From positions 10,175,303 through 10,239,302 of the forward strand of contig NC_092581.1 of assembly GCF_037975245.1 (NCBI RefSeq): DNA of 64,000 nt, written 5' to 3'. The notes under the pieces are model-generated. The model was not told the DNA's origin and ran no database searches. It was given only the letters and a program-made list of their open reading frames with translations. The DNA is from Apostichopus japonicus (Eukaryota > Echinodermata > Holothuroidea > Aspidochirotida > Stichopodidae). A program made the translations under genes and the position numbers. Of this stretch, positions 21,001 to 54,300 are shown piece by piece (within the stretch, counting starts at the first letter, position 1; each line of letters starts with the position of its first letter).

Positions 21001-24000
21001 TCTTAACGAGACATATTGTGTATTTTGGTTTCTCTGGATTGTGCAAATCTGTATTCTTGTGGTAGCAACATATTTTTTTTTAAAAGTCAGAGTCTGTACT
21101 AATCATTTCTTGGTTAATAATTTCTTTCAGGTCTCTCGTCTGCAAGAATCCTTAGATCAGATCTCCAGTTACATTGCCACCTCTCAGATTCCTTCCAGTA
21201 CGCCACTTCTTAGTTCTCAGAGTAACGAGCAAGAAATTAAACCATCGTCGGAAATAGTCTCACATCTTGAAACAGAAACAAATACCACAGAGGTGAGGTT
21301 TGTCTAAAGATAAGGCCAAAGATAAGGTCATATTGATCTCCAAATCAGTGCCCTGCTCTGCCATTTCCTCCATCCTCCCTTCTCCCTCTCTCCCTTTTAC
21401 TCCTCCTTCCTTTCTCCCCTCCCTCCCTCCCTCTCCGTCTTCTTTCCTTGCCCCTTCTCCCTACCCTCTTCTTTCTCCCTTCCTTATCCTTCTTATGTTA
21501 CTTCCCTCTGCTACCTTCCCTCCCATTACCCCACCCTCTCCTCCCTACCTTCCCTTCACTCCTCTCTTCCCATCCCCACTCCCTTCCCTCTCCTAGTCTC
21601 TTCTCTCTCCTACTCCACCCCACTACCTTTTCTACCCCACTCCCTTTTTTCACCTTCCTAACCTTGGATCACCCTCTTCCCTTCCCCTTCCCTCTCCTCC
21701 CTTTCTACCCCTCCTTCCTATTCTCCTCCTCCTCCTCCTTTCCTCCCAACTCCCTCCCTCCTTCCTCCCAACTGCCAATACAACAGCTGGTTATCAACTT
21801 TTCTTCTTACAATCCCTTAAACTTGGCTGTTTACATCTGCAGTATAACTTCTCACACCATTTAACACCCTTGCACCAAAAAACTATAAATTACTAGATTG
21901 TTGCATCATTTTATAGCAAATGTGTGAATTCTCAATAAAGGCAGTTACATTGATGACACATTTCTGACAGAAACCTAATATTGTCTAGGCTGTAGAACTA
22001 CCACACTTTCATATTAACAGATTCATATAGCCTAGCCTATTTTGAATAGAATTATCAAGGTTGTTGGTGTATTTGATGTACTGTTTACACTAATGAATAC
22101 TAACATATGACATCTGTATGTTCACATAGCATAAACTAGTGACGTTGGTGAATTTTGGGTAAAAGAAATTTATGAAACAGTTCTAGCTATTTTAACTTTT
22201 CTTGGTTTATGTATATGTAAGTAGCAGTAATCCAAGTTTTGTTGATCACCGAGTGACATAGTGCCAGATATTTTAATGTTAGATATATTTTGTTATATCA
22301 TATTATTTTGTCAGGAATCCAAGAGTGTTTCCATAACGACCCCTAAGAACGTCGCGGTGTCCTGCCGTTCCTCTACCAGCGTCAGCATAAAATGGGAGCC
22401 GTCCCATTTGGTCGATGAAAATGGGTCTGCTGTAGGTGACACTGTATCTGGATACAGACTCCATATTGACCTCAGGGGTAATAAGTGGATCATGGAGGTA
22501 CCTGGGACACAGACCAGTCTGGGTGGATTGGTACCTGGCACTTACAAGTAAGAACCTCTCATGCACAAAGTGGGTTTTTGTATCCAAGTTTTGTATTAAC
22601 CATGAGTTTGGTATGGAATTGAATGTATTGATTTGTACAACTGCTAAAATAGAACATACAACTGGGGATATACAAGAGAATAAATAGAAATTGAATAAAT
22701 TAAATAAATAGTAAACAACTACCCAGCATTTTTGCAGACCGTTATAGAAGAATATTTTACTAAAGTGGAGGAGACTTGTGAGATGTGATGGTTAAGATCA
22801 AAAGGTCAATCCAACTAAAGAAAGAGATGGAGCAGAAACCAACCACACACCCCACCCCACCCCCTCCCCACCCCAGAAAAAAGAGAAGCTTGATAGGTGT
22901 AATAATTATGCAATTAGTCAGTCTTAAACCTGCATTTAAATGGATTTAGTAATGAAGAAACCTAAATATGATTGTCCAGGGAATTCCAGTAGTTGTCTAG
23001 AGATAAGGCCAAATTGTTCTCCAAAATCATTGCCCCACTCCTCCCTTCCATCTCCCCCTCCCATCCACTCTTGTTTTCTTTTATCACCTCCATCCTTCCC
23101 AATTTTCTTCTTTCATCCCCACCCTCCTACCCATCTTCTTTCCTTTCTTCCCCTCCCTCCCTCCTTTCCTTCTTCACTCACCCTCTTACCATACCTTCCT
23201 CTTACCCACAAAGCAATAAAGTGGTATTTATAGTTCTAGAGAAAGAAACAACTACTTTACAGAAAAAAATTGTTGCATGTATTGAGAATTGATCAAACTT
23301 TAATATTTTTCTTACTGATCTTAGAAATCTTGTCTGATTCATTCTTGCTTTAAAAATTCAAATTTGTAGGTTAACTCAAATGTTGGGGAGAAAAGGAACA
23401 ATATGGTCAGACCTTATTTCTGGAATTCATGACAAAGTCATATATATGGCAGTGACTGGGTTTAGAATGTTGCCCGTCTCATTTGATGGGGTTTTAGTTA
23501 ATTCAAGCTCAGTTGAATCAAGTTAAAGTGGGTTTTTAGGGCGGGATGGTATGGAAGATCATCAAAAGTACAACAGAAAATGCAAGAAAGTTTTAAATCT
23601 TGGTAAAACAAGTTAAGTGATGTGTGTATATTTGTGGGTGGGGAGGGAGTGGGAAGGGAGGGAGGGATGTAACCAAAAATATGTCTATTGGGTAACTTCA
23701 GTCCCACTGCTTGAGGTCACATATAATCAAATGAACAGATTAGGAAGTTATCATTGTAGCAGGAGCTTCGGCTATTAAATATCTTCCATCTTTTATCAAC
23801 TTATTTGATGCATTTCCCCTTGTCCGTGTGTTAATAGGTAGATTTGGATTCTGGCAATGAAGATTGCAGATGAGATTAAATTACCCAGAAATGAGTTGGT
23901 TCCTTGTATTATTGTAGTGGATGTCCCACTTATTGTGCCAAGGGATATTTTCCAGTGTGTTGATTTTTCTTGGCAAACAATGCACAAACAATTCACATGC

Positions 24001-27000: not shown

Positions 27001-30000
27001 GTCAACAATACTACCATCTATGTCAATACAAGCCTAGCCCTAACTTACATATAAAAGTGTTGCCTGAAATCTACGGTTGCTGACAATTAATTGGGCTAAA
27101 TTTCAACTAAAACTGTATCATTTTGTGGGCGAGAAGGAATACTTCAAAAGTGCTTTGTATCCCCTTTGTACAATAGTGGTGCTCTGACAGAAAGGGCAGA
27201 GAGTTCCAAGACTCTGATGGAATAGTTGAGGGTTCCAAGACTCTGATGGAAGGGCTGAGGGTTCCAAGATTCTGCGGAATAGTTGAGGGTTCCAAGATTC
27301 TGCAGAAAGGTTGAGGGTTCCAAGATTCTGATGGAAGGGTTGAGGGTTCCAAGATTCTGATGGAAGGGTTGAGGGTTCCAAGATTCTGATGGAATGGTTG
27401 AGGTTTTCACGTTTTGACGGAAGAGTTGAGGGTTCCAAGATTCTGCCGAAGGGTTGAGGGTTCCAACATTCTGATGGAAGGGTTGAGGGTTCCAAGATTC
27501 TGATGGAATGGTTGAGGTTTTCAAAACTTCTTGGTGGGAATGCTAACAGAGCTGCTTTAATTTATTTGATCAGTTCTGTGTTCCATTCCTCTCTTAGAAC
27601 ATTTCATACATGTCTAGTCTTTTGCGCAAGTCCAGCTCATGCAGCTGCGTAATTACTTTGAGACCCATTTTTACCGGCAGGCCATTTTTGTTTTAGTCGC
27701 AGAGGTATTTATCACTGTGTAAACAGACTTGTAATGTAACATGGTATAACTCCATTCCTTCTGTGCATCATCTTTAAATAACGGATGAGAGAAGGAAACA
27801 AAATGAATTTTGATGTTACAGGCGATGCAAAGGAACTACTATCAATCCTTGGTACAGTACCATTTCAGGACCACGTTTAGCTTTCTTTTGATTAGTAATA
27901 ATTACTCCCATTTTTTTAATGTGTCTTTCATGACTTGTCTGCATTCTGCACCCTCACATGACACCAATTTTCTTTTTTGCCTTGGCACCATTTTCTTGCA
28001 CCCACGTTGCTGTGATTGTTCCTCCGGTTGGTTCCTTTCACAGGCCTGTCTGTCTCTTCACAGAGCAGTCCTCTCGAGGAAAGTAGACTCAAGGGACCGA
28101 TTCCAATGTTAACTATCAATCAAGATAGCGAATCCATTCAGTTGAAGCAAAACTCTTCTACCGAAAGCGAAAACTCTCTGCTTCAGAGTGTCGTCCTTGA
28201 TTCCGATAGCGATGAAAATGGGGACCGGTTTCAGACCAAAAAGCTTTTTAACAACGCCGGAGGGAATTTACCCGAAGCGAACCACGAGGAATCATCAGTG
28301 AGATGCGAATCAAGAAGAATAGATAGCCGAGGTAAGGGGTTGATGACGACGGCGATGGCACAGAAGAAGTCTAACCAAACTAAAATTGCTGCAACGTTTA
28401 ACCTGAGTGACTCTTATAATGAAAGTGAAGGTTCTGAGGATATAACTGAAATATGTAAAAAGGTTGTCCCTCTGAATGCCCAAGGAACTTCCAAGTCCAA
28501 GACGGACGATTATCAGGGATGGTCGAGAGGTGGAGTAACGGATGGTACATTTGGTACGTTGTTACCAATCGAGAAACTTATCCAGAGTGAAACGTCTTAC
28601 CAAGAGAAAGAGGTCGACGATGTATTTGGAGGCTCCAAGGAGGAGGAGGAGGAGGAGGTAGGCTCTGGGAGGCTGGACCCAGATCAGACCCAACTGAGAC
28701 GGAATCAACCGAAGAAAGGAGTCATCCCAGCCGCGAAACAAAAGACGAAAAGTGGTGAAGACAAGGTGAGGAGTGTTAAAATTATATCTTTTCTGAATAA
28801 GAATGGCAAACTTTTCCCGGCAGGGTTGACAAAGAATTTTTATTTTCAACCATCTCCAGGGAGATAGTATTGTTCACTTCTCTGTATTTAACCAAGTTTT
28901 CAAATGAAATTTGTCCATGGAACTGTCTGTGATAGAAAAAATTCAGGCAAGAGTACCGCCAAACAAGGTGCATGAATCATTTGACTACAACACATGAGAA
29001 AGAAAAAAACATTGAAACAGCTTGCTTGGAGGATTATTGAATGTTTTACAGTTATATATTTTCTCTTATACTTACTTTGTGCTATGTCACATCCAATTAT
29101 TGCAAGAAACAATTAATTTGAAAAATGTATATCTTTTCCCATTATATTAACTTACCAAAAAAAAAAGAAAAAACCCACCATCCCTTCCTTTCCACAGCTT
29201 GAGAACAAATAATAGATCAAAACTAAATATGGAATAGTATAGTTATTAATTCGAAATCAAATCAAATTCAAATGAAATATTAGCGCATGTAATGCAACGT
29301 TAAATGACAAGCTAAAGTGAATAGTACTTGAATAGACTTTATGAGCATTCAAGTATGAATATTCATTAGATTCAAAGGAGATTAATCTACAATAATTCTC
29401 ACTGGCTTTAATAATATAGTACATTATGATGGAAGAAGACTTCATGGTTCAACTTTCCAAAGCAGCAAGAGCAAATTTTTTTGAAGGATTTTCTTTTGGT
29501 TGCCCCTCAGACAACCAGGTGTTGTATTTGTTTGTCTTTGGATGTCCAAAAGAAATGTAGCGAAATGAAAGTGACCAGTATGTCACATTGTAGGAGAGAT
29601 GTGTAGATTTGATGAATGAAGCACCCACTGTATGTACCCATGAGAGTTCTGTAAATACAAGTATTAAGCATACTTTACTTGCATTGGTATCACCCACCTA
29701 CTGGATGTACCCATTAGAGTTCTGTAAATTATACAAGTACTAAGCATGCTTGCATTGGTATCACCCACCTACTGTAACCCCAAAACTACAAAGTGTAGTC
29801 ACAGTTATGTGTGAATAGTTGGAAGAATTACGACGATTTATTACTGAAAGTAGCCTTCTGTGTTTCATGAACAACTTTACCCAACTTATTTAGTAGTAAT
29901 CAAATTAACATGGCAATTAATCAAGTTACGGCATACTTCCTCAGAGACTCTTTTCCCCCAAGTTTGCAAACTTATTAAAAAGTCCGTACTTAATTAAAGA

Positions 30001-33000
30001 GCAAAAAAACACAGTTAACAAACTGCTTATCTACTGCAAAATGGCCTGTGTAGGGTAGATATGTTAAAGGGAGAGATCCCTATGTTTCTACCCTCGCAGG
30101 ATTCTTCTTGGAAGCAGGCATGAGCTTTTCCGCGGATTCGCGGAATATCCCGTGATTTCTCTTCTACCTTGGGGACAAAAACTATTATCCTAACACACTG
30201 TAGCATAAGCAAACTGGAGCCTATACCGCAATTTTTGCAAAGTTCTGTGATATATTTTTTACAAAGGGCTCATCCCTGTTGTACAGTAAGAAGCAATTGG
30301 ATCTTTCAATTCAATTAATGAGTTTGGATTTGAATTTCTCAACTTTGCCATCACCAAGACACTCTCCATTACTAACAAGAATTCACCACATGCAAACTAA
30401 TAAATTGGAAAGTTTCCAATTATGTTTTATTCTTAACTTCAACTTTTAACTTCACTAGTCAAGTTAACTAACAACACTTGTTATTTATTTGTATGTAGTA
30501 ACATCAACAATTTATCCAAAATATCAACAACTCAAAAATTTTGATTGAAAGCAACAGTGTCTTAAAACTGTAAAAAGGGGAGTTAATTCCTTTAAGCTAT
30601 AGAGGATTAAGTGAGATCCTGGTACTGACGATACCGTACAGCTTGATCTATCTACTTCCACCCGGTGGTGGTGTTGTTGGAGCTACGGTAGTACCGGCCA
30701 CCTCGGCTGCAGTGCCAGCCACCTCGTCAGCAGTGATGAGATAAGCTGCACAGCTCTCTACTTTTATGAAGGATTCCTGAACCGGTGCGTTAGGATCTTG
30801 TAGGTCGACCACCATCGCTGGGACCTCCCGAAATCGTATCCTGCATTCCACGTTACCCTGGGCGGGGGAGAGAGCGTAGAGGCATTTCTCCTCCTGGAAC
30901 CATTGTTGTTGGCCGTATTCTGGGAACTAAAATTTCAAAGGAAATGGATTTTGAACGACGACTCGTGAACCGGATGGCTTAAACAATCCCATCGATTGAT
31001 CGATAAATCAATCGCTAAATGACAACGTACAAAATTGGGAATCTTTGGGTCGCTGTGCAACACTAGGATGTATTGCATTTAGAGAAAGCTTGACACAAGG
31101 TCCCACATGGCAAGCACAACATGTACAACATGTAACATACATTGACCTGGGGGGATTCAGGCTCTGATAGTAAGCTGGTGTTACAGTATGTTTAGCATAT
31201 ATTTGTAGCTGAAGATAACATTCAGTGACAAGAGGCCTCCTACTGTACGTTAAAAGTAGCTTTTATCAATTTGGTGAGGTCAGCAATGTTTCATAACCTA
31301 TTGAGTAAGTTTTCATTTGAATAAGATTGCACTGAAGTTACTGAACCCATTGAGATTCAGTTCTCTAGTATAACTAGTTTTTTGTGCTTTTTGATTTTTT
31401 TTTTGTACACCAAATAAGGAAGCAATAATTGAGATAAAAATTAATGAAATTGAGTGAATCATCAAGAGATTGTCAGTACAATTTACTTCATTCCAAACAT
31501 GGAATGATTATATAAGGTAATAGTGTCCATACAGTGTTTATTGAGGTTCAAGTTTTTTGTTACAAATTAAACTGGCCAAAAGTGGTCTAACCTTTTGTGG
31601 ATTGTACCATTTACCAAAGAACTCCTCAACCCCCCCCCTCCCCCAAGAAAAGAGTTTCCCTTACCTGAGTGACTTGGACCAAATTTCCACTTTCATCATA
31701 TCCTAATACCATGGCCGTCCAAAACTTTGAAGTAGGACAAAGCTCTAAGGACTCGGCCGGCTTTGGGTCTTCTCTCTTCTGTCTGTCGACGTTCCTCCTG
31801 TTTCTCGACATCTCTGTCATCTTCTCCACGCTGGTTTCGATTGCTTGAAGGTATCGCTGGTAGAGTCTCTCTTGGAAGGAATCGTCCGATGATTCGTCGT
31901 ACTTTATACTCGAAGATTCTTTGCGGAGGAAAGGATTCGTCCTCCTCCTTCCAACATTAGATCTAAAGAAGTCTTTGGTTCTATGGGTCAAGTTTTTCTT
32001 GGGGTCCTGGCTTGCCATTCCTCCTCTGTTCCTTACCAATTTTCTTTCCATACCTGGCCTTGACTGATGGGGACGATAAGACTTCACCCATCGTCTTCTC
32101 CTCCGCCTTGACTCACTTCCGGGACTTGAACTCTGGCTGCTTGGACTTGAACTCTGGCTGCTTGAACTTGAACTCTCCCCCAGTGGGAAGTGAACTGTAA
32201 AGGATTTGAGGCTGTCTTCAATTTCACGGTAAGCCAGCCATCTCTCCATGAACTCCTCTTCGAGGGCCTGGAGTTCGTCCGAGCTGTAGTTACTCTCCGG
32301 TTTGATGTCATTGATCTGTTGCTCTCGCGGTAGGTGCGACCTCTGGTGAAAGTAACCTCTGTTGCCGACCAGAAGTTGCTTGACCTGTTCGTCGGTAAAC
32401 TTGACCATCTCCATCGCCCGGAGGTCCTCGTAAGTGTTCATCATCTCGGGAGTGTCCTCCAAGGCATTGATGAACTGCTTACATCCCTTCAGATGCTGTA
32501 TCTGTTGCTTGTTCAGGTAGACCTCCGAAATGTTAGACGTGCTGTTGTCGCAGAAGTAGTAACAGACAGCATCCAATTGTAAATCCTCATCGTTGCTCAA
32601 TGCGTCATAGCTAAAAGTCATAAGGATTAGGAGAGAAATAGTCGCTGGAGAAAATAGATTTGCCATGGAGGATTTCGGAGATACAGGGACACCGCTTAGA
32701 TAAGATCAACCGTCAGTTGGGTGTTTTTGGTAGAGCTGGAACTCATCGTCATCTCTATGGTTAGTTTAGTCTGTTCTGGTGGTGGTCGTCTTTGATATCT
32801 TAAATGAGATAAATACAGAAAGTATCTGATCATTTTCTTCAATTCCTTGGCGTAGGGCAAATGGAATGTTATAGATGTGATGGTGATGGTATGTGTGAGT
32901 GAGTGTATCTACTGTTTGTGTGATACCCAAACATGTAAACACGATCAGTAAACAAAAAATCACTTCTTGGTTCTTAATACTTGGTATCTAAAGTACAGCA

Positions 33001-39000: not shown

Positions 39001-40036
39001 CTTCTTTTCTCTCTTACCTGTCTCCACTCTTCAGTTGCACTTTCCCCATCTACCTTAGAAGCTAAATGACTGGAAACGGTTTAGCACTGCTATCCTCTAT
39101 TCCTAATTCCTGGGCACCGCCCTCTTTCTCCACCTCCTTCCCAATCTACCATTCAGTAAGTAAAGCAACTTTTAGGTTGTCTGTAAATTTGATATTTAAC
39201 TAAACAGCTACAAAGTTTCAGTCAGATCAACAGTACTCTTATAAAAGTTGACTTTACTGTTTCTCTTTCCTCGGTAGAGAACATTGCCTGCACCCCATCC
39301 ATCAAACCTGCAGTCACCTCAACACTACAGCCGGACCAGAGCTAAAAGCAACAGCTCCGCGAAGACGGAATCCACATCAGAGGCAGCCACCTGTAAGGGG
39401 AAGATATCCAGAGGAAAATACCACCAGCCAAGGAAAGGAGCAGGACTTAGAAACTTTGGAGTCCGAAGAAGCGGATCTGAACCAAACCTGTCTCTGATGC
39501 AGGATCGTCACTCCGGATCGAAACAGATCTTGTCTCCCAACGGTAGAAGTGAGAACGACCCGCAAAGGAGCAATCTACGTAGAAGTTCGGGCGGAGCTTC
39601 TGGTCTCAAGAAATCAGGGATTGCGAGGAACAATACGGAGCAAACGAGCGGACTGAAAAGAGAAAATAAGGAGCAACATCCGGTCAAAGGTCAGACGTCG
39701 TTCGGGAAGTTCAAAACTAAGAGGTCACCAGGGTCCATCATCCCAGCGTTGATTAGTCCCGGATTCCATTACCCAAGCAATTCCTCAAAGTTACCAGTGA
39801 AACATTTGAAAAACAGGGGTGCAGGAACAGGAAAATTCCAGGGAAAGTCGTCCGAGAAACCCGTCCTCCACAGAGGAAAGAACAGTGCAACGGGCACCAG
39901 GACCGGGGTGGATGGGGCGGTGGATGTGAACATGAACGAAAACGGTAACAACTGTAATCCAGCAGCGAACGAAGTCACGGGGAGTTGGGAGACGGTGAGC
40001 AGTGGCGAAGCAGACAGAGATGTGAATGGAGTTTGA
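9019..40036 (+). CDS. CEP97: Centrosomal protein of 97 kDa (CEP97) with FN3 domain
   Basis: In animals CEP97 binds CP110 through its leucine-rich repeats, localises to the distal centriole and restrains cilium formation. Coding exons read here: 9019-9031 (exon from 9011), 9171-9325, 9984-10142, 11075-11176, 11485-11598, 12693-12781, 15508-15597, 16163-16277, 17091-17502, 17953-18556, 18897-19052, 19616-19691, 20183-20422, 21131-21292, 22315-22547, 26361-26785, 28044-28765, 39278-40036. All junctions are GT-AG, phases match throughout, and the total is 4,626 nt (1,541 residues plus stop). Orthology rests on hallmark strings such as [32 protein letters not shown] and LSLAENEI. Order: LRRs about 15-210, cap to 279, linker to 617, IQ about 625-641, coiled coil to about 830, FN3 about 838-930, basic tail. 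Human CEP97 is about 865 residues, so this one is nearly twice as long. A 5' UTR exon is not located. Confidence 0.9.
9171..16277 (+). CDS. CEP97: CEP97 exons 2-8: leucine-rich repeats and cap
   Basis: Residues 5-279. Successive LRR signatures are visible: [120 protein letters not shown]. They end in the cap containing [12 protein letters not shown] and [18 protein letters not shown]. Most introns fall at repeat boundaries. Intron 3 (10143-11074) carries two decayed copies of the end of exon 3; intron 6 (12782-15507) carries a 20-bp minisatellite and a SINE. Confidence 0.9.
10077..11280 (+). repeat. Tandem repeat made of partial CEP97 exon 3 plus intron
   Basis: A unit of about 240 bp spans the last ~65 nt of exon 3, its donor and downstream intron. 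Copies start near 10077 (functional exon end), 10319 and 10564; a fragment of the unit's far end recurs at about 11190-11280 after exon 4. In the second copy one inserted base shifts the frame. In the third an in-frame TAA follows WLN. All three keep the donor-like AAGGTATCT. These are pseudo-exons. Confidence 0.85.
13700..13870. repeat. Low-complexity AT-rich tandem words in intron 6
   Basis: Arrays of GCAAAAT and of AATGATGCCAT sit side by side, giving a short simple-sequence block with no coding meaning. Confidence 0.75.
14690..14960 (+). mobile_element. Probable tRNA-derived SINE in CEP97 intron 6
   Basis: TGTGGCTAAGAAGG resembles an A box; 40-50 nt later GGTTCGATCCC is a perfect B-box core. 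The tail (CCAATATAAGTTGGGTCC onward) is unrelated to any tRNA. There is no acceptor stem, so this is not a tRNA gene. Boundaries are approximate. Confidence 0.55.
15037..15300 (+). repeat. 20-21 bp minisatellite in CEP97 intron 6
   Basis: About 12 units of ATGGCTATGCAAAATGGTCA with variants (GGACAA, CTAAATGG). A long frame with repeated NGYAKW and AMQNGQ results only from the periodicity. Confidence 0.9.
17091..18556 (+). CDS. CEP97: CEP97 exons 9-10: basic and Pro/Ser-rich linker
   Basis: Residues 280-617. Exon 9 opens with a Lys/Gln/His-rich helix ([16 protein letters not shown]), then a Pro/Thr/Ser-rich stretch ([15 protein letters not shown]) and ends in a conserved-looking block [14 protein letters not shown]. 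Exon 10 has an acidic/Ser patch ([18 protein letters not shown]) and a Lys/Arg-rich end ([19 protein letters not shown]). The region looks disordered and phosphorylatable. Acceptor and donor consensus sequences are good at both exons. Confidence 0.85.
18897..21292 (+). CDS. CEP97: CEP97 exons 11-14: IQ motif and coiled coil
   Basis: Residues 618-829. Exon 11 encodes the IQ motif [16 protein letters not shown], a calmodulin-binding pattern also present in vertebrate CEP97. Exon 12 ([19 protein letters not shown]) and exons 13-14 continue as helices with heptad character. Exon 13 holds a short internal repeat of the form LSQEHHG (three to four times) before [16 protein letters not shown]. Confidence 0.85.
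19087..19195. repeat. Inverted pair of dispersed retroposon fragments
   Basis: Arms 19087-19131 and 19151-19195 are reverse complements with few mismatches (GTAAGTTGGCCTGACGTTTC against its complement), separated by a T-rich 19-nt loop. Sequence of the same family continues to the right to about 19245 (GGATAAGCAGTTTGCTAAC). Two copies of the GATCCTGCTAGGATC family thus lie head to head in CEP97 intron 11. Confidence 0.85.
20048..20112 (+). repeat. tRNA-like fragment in intron 12
   Basis: GGATAACTCAGTTGGTAGAG is an excellent A-box/D-arm match and is followed by an anticodon-arm-like stretch. No B box or acceptor stem follows, so it is most likely a truncated SINE head or tRNA relic, not a functional tRNA gene. 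Confidence 0.5.
21300..21780 (+). repeat. Long polypyrimidine tract in CEP97 intron 14
   Basis: From about 21360 to 21775 the plus strand is almost pure C/T (CCCTCC, CTTCC words). It is preceded by a leader GATAAGGCCAAAGATAAGG then CTCCAAATCAGTGCCC. A related leader and shorter tract occur at 22995-23210. Confidence 0.85.
22315..26785 (+). CDS. CEP97: CEP97 exons 15-16: fibronectin type III domain
   Basis: Residues 830-1048. Exon 15 reads [20 protein letters not shown], then GYRLHID, and ends at VPGTYK; the split lysine codon (AA|G) is completed in exon 16, which continues [20 protein letters not shown]. This is a complete FN3 pattern: W in strand B, Y-x-L in C, a final A-x-x/S block and a G strand. 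The domain spans a 3.8-kb intron with matching phase 2, which argues for one transcript. After it, exon 16 is acidic/Ser-rich and ends in a helix [15 protein letters not shown]. Human CEP97, as I recall it, has no annotated FN3. Confidence 0.8.
22990..23212 (+). repeat. Second polypyrimidine tract with shared leader
   Basis: Leader TCTAGAGATAAGGCCAAATT and CTCCAAAATCATTGCCC is followed by about 180 nt of C/T-rich sequence. It parallels the tract at 21300-21780, so both are probably copies of one repeat that ends in a polypyrimidine tail. Confidence 0.75.
24390..24838 (+). repeat. 155-bp tandem repeat, three units, intron 15
   Basis: GTGTCCACAGGAA recurs at 24427, 24582 and 24737, an exact 155-bp spacing. 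Each unit also contains CAATACTTCACAGG and AAATTGTGACCTATTTCTT. The third unit is incomplete at its right end. Open frames here repeat with the unit and are not genes. Confidence 0.9.
27180..27530. repeat. 29-bp minisatellite, about 12 units, intron 16
   Basis: Unit GGTTGAGGGTTCCAAGATTC plus TGATGGAAG. Since 29 is not a multiple of 3, each minus-strand frame passes through all unit phases, and the lack of stops in the unit leaves three long overlapping frames ([12 protein letters not shown]). These are artefacts of the repeat. Confidence 0.9.
28044..40036 (+). CDS. CEP97: CEP97 exons 17-18: long basic/Ser-rich C-terminal tail
   Basis: Exon 17 (28044-28765) and exon 18 (39278-40036) encode residues 1049-1541. 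The acceptor of exon 17 completes GGC (G|GC) in frame after exon 16. Exon 17 is Ser/Asp/Glu-rich, with a six-Glu run near its end ([10 protein letters not shown]). Exon 18 is Lys/Arg/Ser-rich ([20 protein letters not shown]) and ends [19 protein letters not shown] before TGA. I recognise no domain. The intron between them is 10,512 bp and holds another gene on the opposite strand. Exon 18 could belong to a neighbouring transcript, but phase 0 matches and it has no upstream start. Confidence 0.7.
29620..29770. repeat. 73-bp tandem duplication
   Basis: ATGTACCCAT ... GAGTTCTGTAAAT ... GCATTGGTATCACCCACC occurs twice with an offset of 73 bp (29632 and 29705). Confidence 0.8.
30010..30112 (-). 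repeat. Dispersed retroposon fragment
   Basis: AACAAACTGCTTATCTACTG followed by CCTCGCAGGATTCTTCTTGG on the plus strand places this degenerate copy in the same family as the inserts at 19.1, 51.1 and 57.9 kb. Confidence 0.55.
30117..30255 (+). repeat. Dispersed repeat with CG-rich palindrome, copy 1
   Basis: About 140 bp, containing TTCCGCGGATTCGCGGAA at 30128-30145 and AAACTGGAGCCTATACCGCA. It matches, in reverse orientation, the block at 50373-50520 in FAAH2 intron 4. Confidence 0.8.
30648..32666 (-). CDS. Secreted neurotrophin/Spaetzle-like cystine-knot precursor
   Basis: Two exons: 31665-32666 (334 codons) and 30648-30926 (92 codons plus stop), joined in phase 0 at CAG|GTAAGG and a TTTTAG acceptor; 426 residues. 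An N-terminal signal peptide ([17 protein letters not shown]) starts a pro-region with a Ser-rich stretch (165-185) and six Arg at 187-192. A furin-type site RQKR ends at 298. The mature part begins [20 protein letters not shown], continues [10 protein letters not shown] and ends [11 protein letters not shown] plus a Thr/Pro tail. The spacing of C310, C349, C362 and C393 fits Cys 1, 2, 4 and 5 of NGF. Cys 3 and 6, which bond to each other in NGF, are absent. Family assignment is by pattern; Spaetzle-like is equally possible. The whole gene lies in the last CEP97 intron on the opposite strand. Function in signalling is inferred only. Confidence 0.75.
35535..36134. repeat. 298-bp tandem duplication, nearly identical
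   Basis: Copies 35535-35832 and 35833-36134, starting AACAAATTTTTATGTTTGC and ending GTTGGTGAAATAGT. Differences are a handful of indels (e.g. TTCTATG/TTCTACTGTATG), so the duplication is recent. No coding content. It sits in the last CEP97 intron, upstream of the nested ligand gene. Confidence 0.95.
36425..37440 (+). repeat. Pair of ~100-bp dispersed repeats
   Basis: Similar blocks at 36425-36527 and 37335-37438: TCACTT(C/T)AAT(G/T)AATCCAT, then TCAGTGAA(T/C)C(T/C)GGTA, AAAACC(A/G)AAAAGT and a poly-A/T-rich end ATTAAACAAA. The A-rich end suggests retroposition. Confidence 0.7.
37490..37750 (-). mobile_element. Probable LINE/SINE 3' fragment
   Basis: CCCATTATGCCTCCTGGCAC and GGGCAGCAACAACCTTCCA resemble, from memory, conserved 3' segments of dispersed L2/CR1-like elements in marine invertebrates. 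The 109-codon open frame across it has no recognisable domain. Boundaries are approximate. Confidence 0.4.
38215..38310 (-). mobile_element. SINE tail fragment
   Basis: GCGAAGAAGCCATCATTGGC and GCTGACCGAAGTCAGTCTC match the tail of the tRNA-derived SINE at 6520-6757, with the tRNA-like head missing. Confidence 0.75.
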
Positions 40037-41990: not shown

Positions 41991-43208
41991 TCTTCTCGCC
42001 AGATGTGGCACCATCTGGGGAATGATAAAGGAGCACATAGCACAATGTGAAAGAGAAAAACATGTTTCAAAAGAGAAACAATTACTTGACTGGATCTTAG
42101 ATCAATTGCAAGAAGTCCTTGTTTTGGAAAGATTTATTTTTGTGGTCTCATTGGCACAGACTTGAATTTCTCAGAGTACAATGCAGTGGTCACTAGGCTT
42201 CATGATAAACTGCTAGTCTGCAAATATAGGGTTGGTGGGATTGTGGGAGGGGGGGGGGGTGGCGGTAGCTACAATATGCATGTTATTTGAACATTAAAGT
42301 GGGCCGGAAAATCCAACAATGGCACCTTAGACGAACCTAAATTGTCTTTATCCTCGGTATGGACGACATTCTGTTCCAATGATCACAGGTATTTTAGAAA
42401 AAGACAGTTTCAAGTAAAGATAAGGATGTCAACAGAAGGGGGTGTGGGAGTTGGAGACGGTAGTGGCAATTGAGGTGTCAATGCACATGTTTGATATTTA
42501 TTGTATATATCTTCATAGCTATTAAGTTTGTAGATAAGAGAATTTAATATTTGTGAGACTGAATTATCTATTGTCAAGATGAACTCTCAGAGAGGAATAA
42601 GAATCCTAAGATTTATTCTAAATAAACATGTTTTCTTACATTTTACAGCCTATTTCTTTGTTTTATATCTATTCCCTATTTAGTTATACATGAGTGTAAT
42701 ATTAAATACATTTGCTGTTTTGAGTTTAAACTAATCTACAAGTTTGATGCACTTTCAATACAAAGGTAATAGAGTAATAAGTGCGGAATCCCTCAAATTG
42801 GTTTGACTTTATGGTTTGGTGAGTAAACATTAAATGTGAAATCATCCCCAGTATACAGTAACTGTTAGTAACCATGCTGTGTTGAAGAAAACTAGCATTC
42901 CAAGATTGGTATGTCACTCATTTTAGTAAATACCATTTAACGACTGTCTGGATAAGCCAGGTCCACACAGTGAACCTTCGGAAACCATTTCTCTAGTAGT
43001 CCATTGGAGGATTAGATTCGCCATCTCTTTTTCTGATAGAAGAAAAGGATGAAATCGTTAAGGCAACCAAAAACACTTGGAAGTACTAAAGAGCCCTTAA
43101 TATACAGTTTTGTTAAAAAAGTGAAAGAACCTCTTACAAACAACAAGATTGGTTGGGTCCTTTCAAAAACTATTAAGGCTCATTCTCTCTCATTGGTCAA
43201 ATTTTCAC

Positions 43209-43780
<572 letters not shown>

Positions 43781-45383
43781 GATTCAACTTTTTTGCTAAT
43801 CACAAATGTTTGGAAGTTTGGAAAATGTGAGATAGAAGTGAAACATTGTGTTTGTCAGTGACCCACAAGCATTGGCATTTGAATTCCATAAATTTTAGAA
43901 GCACAGGTTGAGGTTAACCAATGGACGCTGTGAGGTCATCTTCCATGCAAATTATGTATCCTAATTGCTTTGCAATACTAAACCAGAGTACAGTCGTTGT
44001 GTGCGCTCATCAGTCGTTCAGGGTGATGTGATTAACTACTCTAATGAATGTATGAGATCAACACAAGGAAACAAAAAAGATTATTTCTGATTTTTTTTAC
44101 ATTACTTTTATTTCAGGTAAATCTAATCATCATTATCATCTAATCAATAAGCATCTGATAAAATCATAGATTTTAACCTTCATCATTTGAAACATGTTTA
44201 TTTAAATAGCAGCACTGAGGTTATCAAAAGCATCACATTGTTGAATAAATATGATTGCATATTAGAATTGATCCCAAAAAATACCAAAAACAAATCAAAC
44301 TATAATTTTTTTACAAAAAAAAAATTAATTCCGAAATCAAAAAGTAATTCAAAATTTACATCCATATGAATTATATTTTAAATTGCACAATTGCCATCTG
44401 CTTCTGTCAGCTGGTCATGAAGGACACTTTGCATGCTTTATAATTTTATAAAATAATGGTGAATAATTGAAAAAAGTTTGAATATAGTACATGATAGTAG
44501 TTTAAAAAATTATGACATTCGTTAACTGTGACATTCGTTAACTGATTATTTAGAAATTCAATATTTCAATACACGAGCAATTAACAATACGATCAGCATA
44601 ACAACCCACATAGCTATAAAACATATTTCACAATGCAACATAAATGTCTATTTCAGAGGTTCAACCTGTTAGTTGTTAACAAGTCACATGACGCATCTTT
44701 GAATGCAACAATTTGTCATCATTGTCACCGTGGAAATAAATATTAAAATTAATGCCTTTTATACTAGCAACATGCAAGCAGCTGAGGGTTTTAAAAGAGT
44801 TCAAACTTACTGTACAACCAAGGAGTATAGAAACCCCAGATAAAATCACTGTTGGTACTTTTTAGGTCCAATGGAAATACAAAATTCATGCCTCGTCTTG
44901 TTGCACTTGTTACATTTATTTTCAAAATGTTACGAATTTAACTACAACATTAATTCTACACATTGCACAATGATTACCTTGTGTAACTTTACCAGTAGTA
45001 TGTTAAACGGACAATAGTACTAAAATAGAGGTAGATTAAAAAATAATACTTATTGGATGTTTTAATTACCTTTAACAGCCAAGTTTATACTCCGCCTTTT
45101 TAGTGCATTTTTGATAATTTATTCAGAAAACCTGACAAATCAATCTGATAGGCTTAATCTCACCAGTATGACATAAAGTTACCAAAAAAAACAACTTTAC
45201 TTCATCGATTTACACTTGTTTTCGTGTCCAAAGATGGTGCAATTAAGTTGCAAACTTGAGCCATGAGTTTACATTCAACTTTAATATTAAGCTTGGACTG
45301 GAAACATCTGTTGAAGTGTTACAACCCTAGGCTTAGTTACTGATGTGTTTTCTTGTTTTAAGGTAACTTAATACCGTCTTGAT

Positions 45384-48300
45384 TGTAGCCTTAATGCAAC
45401 AGATGAGCCATATATTTTTTCTTGGTCTTTCCTAAGCATTAGGAAGAAGCACCTGATACATTTTCTCAATGGGTTGCTCTTGGAAACCCTGTTAGCTACT
45501 TTCCAAGGATGCACAAACATTCCTGAAGTTTAAGAGCATGCAAAAATCTACATTTTACTAAACGCTGGATATTTATTACTCAGCACCATCACTGTCTCAA
45601 CGGTGGTGGTTAAGGAATAAACAATCAGAGACTATTTCACATAACTGCTGTATATATGGATAGCTGTGAGTTGTGTTGACAGGTCAGAAATATTTTGGTG
45701 ACAGTTCTAATATTTGGAAAGGGTCCGAGTGAAGCTGATTTCTAGTGGACAAAAGACGGTAACGAATTACACTATTTTATGTACACAGCTCTACCGGTCA
45801 CACAGACCAAAATGTTGTGTTAAATTGAAAGGCCAAAATCCATGATGGTCAACTCTATTCACAGACTGTGTTACTTCAAAACAATAGTCCATTAGCAGAG
45901 GCCAGTTTGAGTTTACTTTACGAGGCTTGCTTCGTTGATTGGACTTTGCTAAGATTGATTAAAGAATGATTACAATTGCAATAGATTGCAGTAACTATGT
46001 ACACACTTTGGTTTCCAGCAAGACTGACCATAATCTTGTTTCTTGTCAAATATTTGAAAGTCCGGTTTCTGCAAGAGAGTAATACGATCTGCAGCACACT
46101 TGGTCTAGGTATGTTTCCCTGCAGTGAATTATTCTGTGGTTTTTAATTTAATATATATCTTACTGATTGAAAAGATGATGAAAAGACGAAAAGCACAATA
46201 ACTTAAAAACTTTCAAAATAATAAACTGATAAAATAATGAAATATGGAAAAAAAAATATTCACAGACAGTTGAAATTAAATAGGTTTAAATATTGAGAGA
46301 TAGCTACTTATTCAAGCTTGGCCATTATTTTAACAAGTGCAAGGAAGAACGATTATCGTCCTGTTCAAATATTTCACATTGCTTCCTATATGGTTCACTG
46401 CTGTGTACACAAAATGTTAAGCAAGAACAAAGGGAACTGGATAAGGTATTGAACACCAAAGGATCGATGCATCTGTGATGTCACGGATGAAGATCCTAGC
46501 TGGTCAAAACTAAACATTTTTCATAACAAGTATAATCCTCTCCTTGACCAAAATATGTGTCAAAATTTAAAACCGTTACAATAAATAATTCCCAGTTTTT
46601 ATGAGAAAAATCTGGTGATCAGTAGTAGCCGTATGATAAGTTACAGTGAAAGAGCCAACTGCTTAGAGGTAAATAATTCCAACTCTTGTCAAAATTTCTA
46701 ACGATATTCAAAGATCAATTTTATGGCGGCACCTTTTCTGTTAAGCATTTTCTGGACTGATTGTGGCCTTGAGAGAACATGAAACAGGCAAGAAGAGAAA
46801 AGAGAATAAACACTGGAATGTAATGGTTGCCCAGATACAGCCCCTGAAAACTCTTCACATCTACTAAATAGCAACCCAAAACATACCATCCGGGCTAACA
46901 GAAATAAAAACTGGGCCACCGTCAGTCATCCACAGATTTGTTTCCGTCGTTTTCGTCTGTCCCCAGACGATCGCCTACCAACGAACCGCTCAATTCCGTC
47001 ACCCATCCCCCGAATCCCTTTTCTAGTTGCCGGGCAACGGCTAGGGTCAGGTGATCGTTGTAAGGTGTGGTCACCAGCTGAACGCCTAACGGCAGCCCTT
47101 GTGTGCTCAGTCCCAATGGCACTTGAGTCACGGGGAATCCGAGAGCGTTGAAGATCCCGGTGTACGCAAAGTTGGTGGGATGTACGATCGGCGAGTTATG
47201 GAAAGGCGCTATCTTTGGATGGGAGGGGTAGAGAAGGACACCGTTGTCGCCGAGCAATTCTTTCAGCTGATCACGCAGCTTGGTGCAGGACGAGAGGAGA
47301 CGGTCTGTTTTATCTGGCATGAGTCGATCGAAATCTTCAAAGAGGGCAAGAAGTATGGCGGGTAGGGTGTGGTTGGAGAGATTGAAAATGCGTTTCACGA
47401 GTTCAAGGCTCGGGAGGACCTGGGTGCCGTGGTCTCCCATGAGAGAGGTAAAGGTGTCTCCACCGCTCTTCTGCATGCGTGCAGACCAGATAGCTACTGA
47501 GTACTTGAAGCGATGAAGTAACTTGTGTTCGACTTTTACGCCGAGGGTTTCTTCGAGGTATTTAGCGGCCTGTAGAGAATAAGAAAAATATGAACGTAGA
47601 AACGACAAATCAATCGCATTTTTACTTTGACCGAAAAAAAAGCCATATTCTTTAATGAATATCAATTAATGAATTGCACAACATGTTAAACATTAAATAT
47701 TCAGCTTAACTCTGCACGAATGTTTTTCGTGTTTATTTAATAGAAAAAATGGTTGAAGGACAAAGATGATCTAATACCCGGGAGACACTTCTCACCAAGT
47801 TTTGACTGGATTGAATGCCTACTTACAATATCTATTGCCTAAAACTATTACAGTCAAAATAACATACATTGACTCATATAACAAATATTTATACTTTTTT
47901 TTTTAATCACAGACAGTTTCCTGCAGCTCCAGAACTTAAAAAGGCTTGTCAAAAGAGAATATTGATAATTAATGCTGCAAAAGAGAATCAGAGGAAACAA
48001 ATATAACACTTGAAAGATGACGTATTTGTGGATTCGTTACAAGCCAACTCGGGATGGTGTAATGATTAATTACCAAAGGCAGGTACTTAATAGCAAAGTT
48101 TTTGCTTTTTCTGTGCCAGGCAAAGAGATAGTACTATAAAATTCACAGACCTGTGTCAACAAGACTCAGGGGTTTGAAATGAATCATTTATCAACTGTAC
48201 CCTTCTTCTGTACATATTAATGATCACGAAGCAACAATGTTTAACACATATGATTTATTTTGGCGGTTCTTTTGTTTGTTTTTCTTTACTATTAAAACAA

Positions 48301-48395
48301 TTTGTCTGAGAATGGTTGATGGGCTGGTCTTTGGTAAGCATTAGGAAAAAACTCCTGATACATTTTCTCAAGGATCCATGGGTTGCTCTTTGGCA
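45384..48395. repeat. Pair of ~75-bp dispersed repeats
   Basis: Blocks at about 45420-45485 and 48328-48395 share GGTCTTT, AAGCATTAGGAA, CCTGATACATTTTCTCAA and GGGTTGCTCTT. The second lies in FAAH2 intron 5, the first downstream of the gene. Confidence 0.75.
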
Positions 48396-51300
48396 AGTTA
48401 TGGGGGGAGGGGCCTATTCTTCCCTGTTTTATTTTCACCCTGGCTTCCAACCAATCACAGAGCTACTTTGATCCTCACTTTGTATGGATCTATCTTTGCT
48501 TTTATCAGCTGTCTTTAAAATCGATGGGCAAAACATATCTGCATAAAAACATACACTTGATGCACGATACAAGTGATTTGAATCAAAATGCTGTGCATCC
48601 CCTCCTTAGTCAAGTGTTTGACTTTGTCCAAATTCTTAAAAAATCTGCCCTGGTTGCCAATATATTCCATTGAACTGCGGATAGTCCTTCTGAGATCCTC
48701 CTCCCAAATTGCGTGAATCTTTGTTCAGCTGTCACAGTTCCAAAGATTTGGACCAAACTAACATCGCATCTTCGTACTGTACCTGCACTTGTCTTGAGTT
48801 GCATTTGTTATCACTATCATTTAGCTCTATCATATGTTGAGGGGTGTAAATACTTTCTTGAGGTTACTTTCAACCATATCATATAAGATCTGGGTGATTA
48901 TGAAAATTAATCTACCATTAAAAATTAATCTACCATAATCTACCATCCGTCACACACATACAAAATACACTAGAGCAGATAGGAATAATGTCACTCACTC
49001 TAAACTGTGCATCCCTGAGTTCTGGATCTAAAGGTGACAGCAACATCTTCTTCATATCAGTGCCTGCACTGAAGTACTTTAGAGATTTGAGATCGACAGG
49101 AGCATCTAGCTTTATCTTTGAGATCCCTTCGGGTCCAGCCATGACTCTCAGTAGAGGGTCCAGGTCCACCGCATATCTACATAGTGGACCCGTAGACATC
49201 ATCTCATCCTGGTCTCCTTTAGCGCTGGGGAACTGCCCATCGTTGTCTACGACTCCTGCAGAATATAAAAAAAAAAATACTGTGACTGCTGGGAAACTGG
49301 ATAAACCTCCAATGGAAGATGCCACGGTCGGGTATATTCAATATGCATAGCTTTGGTTTTAGGGGCCCCGGTTCAAAAGTAAGGGTCCCTTCACTCTCAC
49401 CTCATATAAACGGCACTTGACACAAAAGCCATCGATGTATTAAACAACTGTACATTTCTGTTTGCTTATCTGTCTTGACTGTCAATTGTGATCCTCTAGA
49501 CGACCAAATGTTGGAGGCACCTGGACATTGGAGGCCATCAGAGAGGGGGGGGGGGGGCCTGGTTCACTGAACCACTTGAACCAACTATTGCTACGACTCT
49601 GGGTTTATTTCATGATAAGACACTTTAAGATAAAGGAAATTTCATTAACGTCTAAATAGCTGTTCGAGATAAGAGCATTATTTATTCTTTTGAGTGTTTA
49701 CGTTGTGCAGGGTGTATCAGGATTCAATACAGTAGTTACACAGGTAACTGAGCTCAGATGTAATTTCAGTTGGCCTTACTTTTATCTTAAGTTGCATATG
49801 AAGGCTTGCTGGATGTACTTTTCTTTCAGAATTTTGGGGTTAAAATTGCAGAACTTCTGTTCATTTTGACCAGTGATGAGGGTATGTTACACATGGCTTA
49901 AATACAATGGAAGGCATTATCCAGAAGGACACATGAATGTAAATTGTAACATTCATGTGTATGAAGACAAGACTATGCTAAGCCATTGTGTAAATTTCAC
50001 AATCCTCTTTACCGTTTGTCACAGATTTATTAAATAGTTGCAAAACCTATGTTTGGGCCTGAGATCGAGCGAATAAAAAATCAAACCCAAACAAATGCGT
50101 CCGGTTCTTTGTTATTGTATTAGTCGACATGGAAACATTAATGGGATGCATGTATTTATCTCGACCAAACACTAACAAACGAAGGGATGCTCTTGTTTTG
50201 GTTTGAATTGATTTATCTGCTGGATGAGCCTGGATCTCTGCCAAATGGGACAAAATTGTTTGGGAAAGAAATAAGTAAATAGTAATGATTGTGTGATTAT
50301 GAACCACACAATAGTACTGATAAAATTACTTAAACCATCGAGATTGAATGCATTATGCAGGGATGAGCCTGGGGTAAAAAAAAAAACACGGAACTTTGCA
50401 AAAATTGCGGTATAGGCCCCAGTTTGCGTATGCTATAGTGTGTTAGGATAATAGTTGTTGTCCCCGAGGTAGAAAAGAAATCATGGATATTCCGCGAATT
50501 CGCGGAAAAAGCTCATGCCTGATTATGGGGCGTTAATGAACATGGCACTACTTATGTGAATGAATCTCATAAAATTATGATATTATGACATGCCAGGTCA
50601 TGTCAGGTCATGATTATGTGATTATTTACAATGCAATAGTACCAGAAACACCTGTAGAATGAGGGATCTGTTCGTTCGTTCGTGTTTATAACGGAATGCA
50701 TGATGGTGCCCTTAACAATGCAATGAATCACTTGTTGACTTAGCAGGTTCATAAAGCATTTCCTATTAATGAAAACACAAAATAATGCCTTGGTTATTGA
50801 CATGCTGCAAAACTTGCCCAGATCTTTGGGAATTAGATATTAAAGTATTCTAGACTACTGTTTGCTTGTCAAAAATAGCAGACTTTTCTTTCTAAAACAT
50901 CTGTTGTTTTATTATTGTGAAAAAAAAGATCACTTTACCAGGACTGGGTTTGTGACCAAAGACGCCATTGAAGAAAGCTGGCATACGAATGCTGCCACCA
51001 ATGTCAGCACCGATACCGATCACCGAGGCAGCGGCAGATAAAATACATCCTTCTCCACCTGCGAGGAGAAAGTAAGAACAAAGTACTAATATTATGATTG
51101 TAAAATTGGTGAAGTCTTTAAAAGTGTGTAAAAGTAAGTAGGCCTGACGTTTCAGTCCTAGCAGGATCTTCTTCAAAGGCTGAATGACAAGTAACAGTAA
51201 CAGAAGGGACAAATACACACACAGAATACAGACAGGCTAATGAGCATGGTGAACACAAAGAGATAGATGTAAGAGGATTAGTAGCTTTGTTTATTTCTGT

Positions 51301-54300
51301 GAATAATTTTGTAATGAAACTTGTGAAATATTTCATAAAATTTTGAGAACAAGGATCGGCTGTAACTAATCATTTAGTATTAGAAACTGGTCACAAGGAT
51401 TTATAAACATAACATTAAAAGTGGAAAGCTTATTCAACAGAATGGAGATTGCTTTAATACACTGCAGAATTCATGGTGTCACTTTCATATTAACTTTTAT
51501 TAGTTGCAGCTATTTAAGCTAAAATGCATACTGTATCAACAGGCAAACTTCAAAATGTTTCGGTATTCTGGGTGTTATTCTTGTGTGGATGTTGTTGTTT
51601 ACATTTCCTTCATTTGCATTTTGCCATTCAACAAAGTCTCATTTGCATATTAAATTATTTAAATGTGTATAACTCATGCTGCTTAACTATGGCAAATGGT
51701 AAAGTATTCTGAATTCTCTTCCTCTTCACGTCATGAATCAATTGTAACATCAATAATAACTTTCGACTAAATACAGCTAGCTAAATGGTTACAGGTTCGA
51801 CCATTTTACCGGAGCTAATAATATCAAATAAATAAGTAACTGCCTTACAGATGTAATGAACTCATGAAACAGCAACCCTAAAACTACGCTAATAACTTTA
51901 GGCTAGCACCAATAAATATCATGTTGATAACCCACCTGAACTTCCACCAACTATTCTTCTAATGTCGTAGGCGTTGTTTGTCCTTCCGTAGACAAAATTT
52001 GCCGATTCGTACCACATGCAAAGCTCGCTACAGTTTGTCACCCCTAAGACGATGCAACCGGCTTTCTTCATGTTTCCCACAGGTGGGGCGTCGTCCTCTG
52101 CAATGACTCCCTTTCGACTCACCAGTCCGCTCGTGTTTGGCATTCCTGAAAGGTTGAAATGTCGAGTAACACAGGAATTATTTTTATCTGGTATCGCATC
52201 GCAAAATGGGAAAATGCTATGGATCCATAGCTTTTAATATGAGACAGAATTCCAAGCCTTCAAAACGTCTAAACAAAACTCAGACATTGAATTATTCCCT
52301 GTATTAAATGCAAAGAAGATTTAACATCATAACAGGATGGCTGCTGAAGCCTTTTCAACTGGACACTTAAAGCGTGAATAGCATGATTCTATGACAAACC
52401 ACTGCAGTATTTTTTCAATGCAGTTTGAACTCATTCAAGATAATTCTTATTTTACCTTTACAGGAAAAGGCTTCCTTCACGGAGACCGGTACTCCCAGGA
52501 AAGGAGCATTCTTTTTGTTGTATCGCTCGGGAATATCTATAGACTCTAATATTTTATCGACCTCCTTGGCTTCTCTGATGGCATCTTCGAAGCAGTCAAC
52601 TACCAAACAGTTGAGAAGTCCATTGACCTCCTTAATCCTGTCAATGTATGCTCTGACCACAACCTCACTTGTGAGCTGAAAAGAGAAACAAACTAAACAT
52701 ATTTAATCACACTTGTTAATAGACTCCCAGTTGAGTTTATCGATAGAGTTTTAACAATAGTTCTTTTAGCAGTAAATTACCATTTTTTCCCTGGATATTT
52801 CATCACACAGAAAGGCCAAACAGTCATTATAATTCAATTCACACTAGTCTGAGAAACCAAAATTAACATCTGAAATTCTGATTCATGAAATTTTGGCTTT
52901 ATAATAACATTTAAAAATTAACCCCCTGCATGGACTGTGCTGCATTAACCCACAGGAAACATTTTTTTTGGATTTTAAATCAATAGTATATTGTTGTGGA
53001 ACATTTACTAGATGAGAAGGTTAAAACAAGCTTTATTATTTTGCCTCCATAATATGCAACAGTGTGAAGAAACAATCCTAAGATTGTCCTCATTTCAACT
53101 TGAAAAATTTCTCCAAATTGTACTAAAACCAAAAAAATTAAATATGAATACTGTACAGTTTTTGTTTGCTTTGTTGCTATTTTCCTTTGTTAAGGGCTTA
53201 GAAACTTTTGTATTAGGCGCTATATAAATATTATTTATGATTATTATTATTATTATTAAAAAAAAAAAAAAAAATTGGGGTAGTACTTACCAATCCAGTT
53301 CACACAAGTACTTGATACTATTGATTAATTGTATGTGAACTTCAGACTTTGTGCTGATTAATGAAACAAGTTACTGTAGGTGTATTAATTAATATGTTGT
53401 CTGTATATAACTCTATTCTTTTGCATCCATAATACACAACAGTTTGTAGATACAATCCTAAGATGTCCTCATTTCAACTTCAAAAGGATAACAATTTCTA
53501 TCAAAATTGTACTAAAACATAAACAATTAAATGTGAATACTGTACATTATTTAAAGGCTTAAGAAACACCACACAGTCATGTAGTAACTCCAATTTTCAC
53601 TAGAATTAGATACTGAAGAAGTTTTTGTTTAATTGTATGTGAACTTCAGACTGTGTGCTGATTAATAAAATGCAAAAGATAGGAGTTAATTAACATAGTG
53701 TCTGTAAATAAATTTAAGGTTATTTTTGTCTACTCAATATGTAATCTACAGAATTTCCCAGTGCATAACTTCTACAATAGTTAAGAGCAACTGTGTCAGC
53801 TTGAAGGTTTCTGAAACTAACAAAATTCTGGGGAAGAAAAAGGAATGGTTGAATATGGTTCTGTGTACAAAAACTTCTATACAACTCAGTCTGCTGTTGT
53901 GTAGAACTGTGCCTTAATATAAATTTTGATTAGTATTTTAGACTTTCTGGTACTTACTACATAACATTTCTTTGACTGAAAAGTGGGACAATGTATCTGT
54001 CCCTTCATTTTGAAGAAAATTTCATATTTTGAAGAGGGCTACATAGTTTTTCCCGCCAAGCTTGCAGGGCTAATATGTGGCCATCGATCATATTTGTGTG
54101 TTGAAGGTATCATAAATGCTTCTAATTGGTCATGTATCTACTGTAAGCCTTTATAGTTAGTGTGTACAACATACATGTTTACTTTTGTTAAGTACTGTAT
54201 ACTTACATCTGTATTGTAAACACAGCGATAAATTTTATTTTACTCAGTACAATGGATACTTATAAACATATATTGATGTAACTGTAAGGTCAACCGTCAA

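Follow-up and report, generated by a model that had tools for sequence, protein, structure and literature searches.

A four-cysteine gene family of Apostichopus japonicus points to a neurotrophin-like domain that probably lacks a closed cystine ring

In the growth-factor cystine knot the closed ring is treated as a hallmark, and NGF carries the bonds 15-80, 58-108 and 68-110. Can a domain of this kind lack both partners of one bond and keep the other four cysteines, and is such a state the property of one decayed gene or of a family? The question is raised by a gene of the sea cucumber Apostichopus japonicus found in the window, the whole stretch of 64,000 nucleotides analysed here (C21:10175303-10239302), for which a preliminary description had proposed a neurotrophin/Spaetzle-like ligand without bond 68-110.

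The gene lies on the minus strand and comprises two exons (32666..30648) that, upon splicing and translation, yield a precursor of 426 residues. Exon 1 (31665..32666) contains the start, the hydrophobic N-terminus, the prodomain, an RQKR motif and Cys310 and extends up to VTQ334; it matches the exon-1 profile of the family described below with an E-value of 1.3e-18, the gene itself being a member of that profile. Exon 2 (30648..30926) runs to the stop and carries C349, C362 and C393 together with both positions of the missing cysteines, and the exons are separated by a phase-0 GT-AG intron of 738 bases (30927..31664) that occupies the same place in the paralogues. Inspection of the translation revealed the layout of a neurotrophin, namely signal peptide, prodomain and basic cleavage site: a signal-like hydrophobic stretch covers approximately residues 1-24 and a likely furin-type cleavage site, RQKR at 295-298 (31773..31784), stands ahead of the mature domain, both recognised by eye, as was the Thr/Pro-rich tail that ends the protein. 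The precursor contains seven cysteines, three in the prodomain (positions 35, 39 and 62) and four after RQKR (310, 349, 362 and 393). In a six-frame scan of the window, which took in 3473 segments of at least 12 residues each, only the two known exons were strongly matched by the profiles of the family, of NGF and of Spaetzle, with no extra exon that would supply the missing cysteines, and the remaining matches (E 0.034 to 0.89) look like chance. Since both missing positions are inside exon 2, an extra exon would have to replace exon 2 as a whole.

As for the surroundings of the gene, a fibronectin III/RIMBP2-like domain on the plus strand at 22246-22548 (PF00041, E 4.9e-5; PF25523, E 5.3e-4; both below cut-off) is followed by long disordered plus-strand frames at 28016-28867 and 39278-40036, so that an intron of that gene may contain the ligand gene in antisense orientation; scanning for motifs revealed no SH3 domain. 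The minus strand holds amidase exons at 46925-52702 (PF01425, E 4.7e-7 and 3.2e-10), which we take to be like fatty-acid amide hydrolase, a PB1 domain at 1627-2211 (E 9e-4, below cut-off) and a minisatellite-like repetition of frames of the 'ESWNPQPF' type at 27107-27524. About 600 bases of trinucleotide repeat at 43197-43799 leave several frames open (poly-His/Ile/Ser).

The cysteine count, spacings and coordinates given in the preliminary description proved exact when the gene was spliced and translated: the mature domain has C310 (31737..31739), C349 (30882..30884), C362 (30843..30845) and C393 (30750..30752) and no other cysteine, that is, four of the six knot cysteines of a neurotrophin. 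Alignments to coagulogen, NGF and the family profile place the first three at the equivalents of NGF Cys15, Cys58 and Cys80, respectively. HHalign against neurotrophins and Spaetzle matches C349 to Cys58 and C362 to Cys80 and leaves a gap at Cys68, and the NGF profile alignment and a joint alignment with the NT2 gene of the same genome put C393 on Cys108 and A395 (30744..30746) on Cys110; in one pairwise profile alignment C393 is shifted by one residue, to the extra cysteine that the NT2 gene has beside Cys108. The alignment with coagulogen is ungapped, C362 falling on the coagulogen cysteine that also stands 12 residues past the equivalent of C349, and an alanine in the loop of the window protein faces a coagulogen cysteine. 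These alignments bear out the assignment of C362 to Cys80. Its assignment to Cys68 was rejected, as the stretch from C362 to C393 (30 residues between, versus 27 in NGF) fits Cys80-Cys108 in spacing and pattern; in place of the terminal C-x-C stands C-A-A.

Two arguments that had been attached to this assignment fared less well. The loop between C349 and C362 (30846..30881) is indeed shorter than in NGF, 12 residues versus 21, and is without Cys68, but it had been held that the shortening took the cysteine with it, and coagulogen with the same 12-residue gap keeps Cys68: shortening of the loop alone need not cost the cysteine. It had further been argued that chance would rarely remove exactly one bonded pair. 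However, of the 15 ways to lose two of six cysteines, 3 remove a bonded pair, which makes the argument from rarity a weak one.

What is the evidence that the domain belongs to the neurotrophin superfamily at all? The full window protein matches no Pfam family at E-values up to 10. The best Pfam match of its mature part is Coagulin (PF02035) at E 0.086-0.14, with 12.5-13.2 bits against a cut-off of 25. Neither NGF (PF00243), which one of nine family members matches at E 0.27, nor Spaetzle (PF16077) is listed for the window gene, which ends in SC-A-A and not in SCC-x-C. When Pfam was searched with four family members the matches were Coagulin and NGF only, and with nine members six families were returned, four of them unrelated and two of these ranked above Coagulin and NGF. 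With an E-value limit of 10, HMMER listed 18 PDB sequences; 17 of them belong to neurotrophins or Spaetzle, with 0.014 as the best E-value, although these are near-copies of each other; an unrelated G-protein alpha chain stood second at E 0.015 and Aedes Spaetzle chains appeared at E 0.67-0.69.

No Pfam family reached its cut-off in these searches; the kinship was seen at the level of profile-profile comparison. The nine-member profile matched neurotrophins with E 3.5e-5 and coagulogen with E 0.003 (0/200 shuffles as good for each), the NT2-type gene of the same animal with E 0.013 (0/200), NT2 and neurotrophins together with E 1.2e-5 (0/200) and Spaetzle with E 0.021 (1/200), and the IL-17A control gave E 0.094 with 20/200 shuffles as good. 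A four-member profile scored 29.7 against NGF (E 7.8e-5) and 23.5 against coagulogen, in both cases with no shuffle as good among 200, nor among 200 in which the cysteine columns were held, and 15.8 against Spaetzle, with 8/200 and 6/200 shuffles as good, respectively. The neurotrophin side of the proposed kinship thus stands, as a remote one seen by profile. Membership of the IL-17 family was rejected for want of profile likeness, and the window gene ends in C-A-A. These results also bear on the reading that the family comprises secreted, cysteine-bearing proteins of a different fold, in which short motifs flanking the cysteines happen by chance to look like NGF. The single-sequence searches are below significance and AlphaFold gave no confident model of exon 2 alone (pLDDT 48.1, pTM 0.27), both of which speak for a different fold; but no shuffle did as well against NGF or coagulogen, even with the cysteine columns held, separate searches reached coagulogen and NGF, and the IL-17A control behaved otherwise, and we regard this reading as improbable.

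We searched the genome (671.6 Mb, 35 contigs) for relatives of the gene. With the mature domain as query, relatives were found on two other chromosomes, C18 and C13, and a C13 protein as query returned more, so that besides the window gene eight relatives with an intact last exon are present (C13a to C13c and C18a to C18e). These nine copies are a lower bound, and the family has at least nine paralogues. Queries with C18a and C13c returned no further member from the genome, and C18:8501000-8608999, when scanned, yielded no additional family copy. A match on C8 (L045) was inspected and is not a family member, and a match on C23 (L050) was weak (E 4.96). A tenth copy (L035/L026, C18 at about 8,587,500) carries a frame shift and is broken between two reading frames.

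A neighbouring exon with Cys15 was found for 8/9 copies; for C13c, C18c, C18e and C18d the exon-1 profile matches are weak (E 0.0073, 0.014, 0.12 and 0.56, respectively) and the calls draw on position, reading and donor site as well. No Cys15 exon was found in the region of C18b, which contains a long run of N; near C18b (L008, C18:6843300-6853200) this run is roughly 2.5 kb, and the exon may lie there. The intron acceptor AG is at the same codon boundary in all ten copies shown and the donor GT is present in 8/8. Residues 87-108 of the window protein (32343..32408) carry a prodomain motif (as in MVKFTDEQ...GYF) that recurs in the prodomains of all seven precursors given, C18e not being among them, the pattern having been written after the precursors were seen. 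A basic site at a like place was recognised by eye in three paralogues as R-x-K-R or R-K-K-R and in one as RRRR.

In the mature domains Cys15 is present in 8/8 members and Cys58, Cys80 and Cys108 each in 9/9, and Cys110 is found in none of the nine; no member has Cys68 in register, C18c having a loop cysteine approximately one column off. The claim that both partners of bond 68-110 are absent with the other four cysteines kept is seen, therefore, across nine paralogues, and the window gene shows all features of the set: Cys15/58/80/108 without Cys68/110, a phase-0 intron before Cys58 and the prodomain motif. The mean identity is 31% over 36 pairs, and the window gene is 22-32% identical to the others.

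This distribution bears on whether the gene descends from a six-cysteine neurotrophin or NT2 gene and is decaying as a pseudogene. Two cysteines are gone and the C18 cluster does contain one broken copy; against this, the 426-codon reading is open, the splice sites are intact and the same two cysteines are absent from eight other members at such low identity, which leaves the pseudogene reading with very little probability. The gene had been described as a derivative without one bonded pair, and with its four core cysteines this part is upheld, but the trait is that of a gene family and not of one decayed gene. Judged on the sequences, it is the shared state in nine diverged copies that carries weight.

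The history of the family is less clear. For the closest pair, C18d and C18e, dN was 0.067 and dS 0.047 over 285 bases with a variable stretch left out; since dN is not below dS, purifying selection is not shown for that pair, and the values fit with rapid divergence. When 14 rows were placed in a tree, with C18b left out, 8 of the 11 inner branches were open and the family was not one clade, its rows sitting between those of Spaetzle and the neurotrophins: the window gene and C18a joined the neurotrophins at 82/96 and C13c joined Spaetzle, on long branches. The tree does not prove a single origin, and the case for common descent comes from the shared intron, the motif in the prodomain and the arrangement of the cysteines.

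The same genome retains relatives with six cysteines. L001 (C1:6485324-6485629, plus strand) is a canonical six-cysteine neurotrophin (Pfam NGF, E 4e-27) whose precursor of 254 residues is one open frame. L038 (C1:295480-295740, minus strand) carries the full set of six knot cysteines, one additional cysteine and a PSCCSC end, with Spaetzle at 1.3e-5 and NGF at 5.5e-5 in Pfam, both just under cut-off, and near it L039 (C1:290365-290493, plus strand), which was read from Cys80 on only, ends in PSCCAC. From their sequences, L038 and L039 are neighbours of the NT2/Spaetzle type, both with an SCC-x-C end, and L001, L038 and L039 resemble the sea urchin NT and NT2 as these are described in an excerpt of PMC2772990. 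As the six-cysteine relatives are intact, the genes with four cysteines form a line of their own.

Compared with the neurotrophins (NGF, BDNF, NT3; PF00243), the family shares the prodomain, the basic cleavage site, core Cys15/58/80/108 and a domain-wide profile match, whereas Cys68 and Cys110 are absent, the mature domain is split by an intron and the match is far under the Pfam cut-off. L038 and family members have VC..., LV.LYQ and QWF stretches in common, but in L038 Cys15 to the end is one open frame with no intron ahead of Cys58, and all six knot cysteines are there. The likeness to Spaetzle lies in the hydrophobic core pattern and in the SCC end of 4/9 members, but the final C-x-C is missing from 9/9 and the profile match is weak. 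Horseshoe crab coagulogen (PF02035, PDB 1aoc) shares the 12-residue gap and the CP.S, GY..G, Q.P..G..Q and KC stretches with the window protein, but has kept a cysteine in that loop; it has many more cysteines in total. The NGF bond absent in IL-17 is 15-80, a different one from 68-110. That a knot fold can lose one bonded pair has a precedent in IL-17, as the relevant part of PMC4517768 gives the two cysteines of the third bond as serines in chordates, although IL-17 keeps the C-x-C end and the family does not.

The four core cysteines might also be paired otherwise within an NGF-like fold, with C15/C58/C80/C108 re-paired or with extra cysteines forming a substitute third bond or intersubunit bonds in some members. 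Extra cysteines do occur, N-terminal in three members, beside Cys80 in 3/9, before Cys108 in 4/9, in the loop in 1/9 and between Cys15 and Cys58 in 1/8. Those before Cys108 recall the NT2-type genes (Sp-NT2; here L038 and L039), and in the sections of PMC2772990 that treat sea urchin NT2 and some Spz an extra cysteine next to the fifth is tied to covalent dimers. The mature part of the window gene is without any such cysteine, so this member can form at most two intrachain bonds, and we consider other pairing unlikely, if somewhat less so than a different fold.

Our preferred reading, with a probability of about 0.7, is that the gene encodes a secreted ligand precursor of the neurotrophin/NT2/coagulogen superfamily, one of at least nine paralogues, from which furin would free an NGF-like domain with two bonds and no closed ring. 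The precursor layout, the conserved intron, the four core cysteines and the absence of Cys68 and Cys110 are observed. A furin-type protease would cut after RQKR298 and release a domain of approximately 128 residues, whose NGF-like beta fold would be held by bonds 15-80 and 58-108; without bond 68-110 there would be no closed cystine ring, and the molecular knot of the nine related proteins is probably open. More speculatively, the domain might form dimers that signal from outside the cell through a receptor with leucine-rich repeats, either Toll-like or Trk-like. The clustering of copies in tandem and the shifting set of extra cysteines suggest ligands that diversify, perhaps with an immune role.

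A bolder proposal, which we put forward only tentatively, is that this is a new expanded ligand family with a ring-less neurotrophin fold, in which bond 68-110 was lost once in a common ancestor whose descendants then spread in tandem and now supply a repertoire of endogenous ligands to leucine-rich-repeat receptors. The family would then be what Spaetzle is, but in a deuterostome, and its knot would be opened at a bond other than in IL-17. Searches of the open-licence PMC literature listed no title or abstract opening on a four-cysteine family of such kind. If the preferred reading is true, an NGF-like fold would be able to persist without ring closure, much as in IL-17 with another pair missing, and the animal would have, in addition to its canonical neurotrophin and NT2 genes, a set of candidate secreted ligands.
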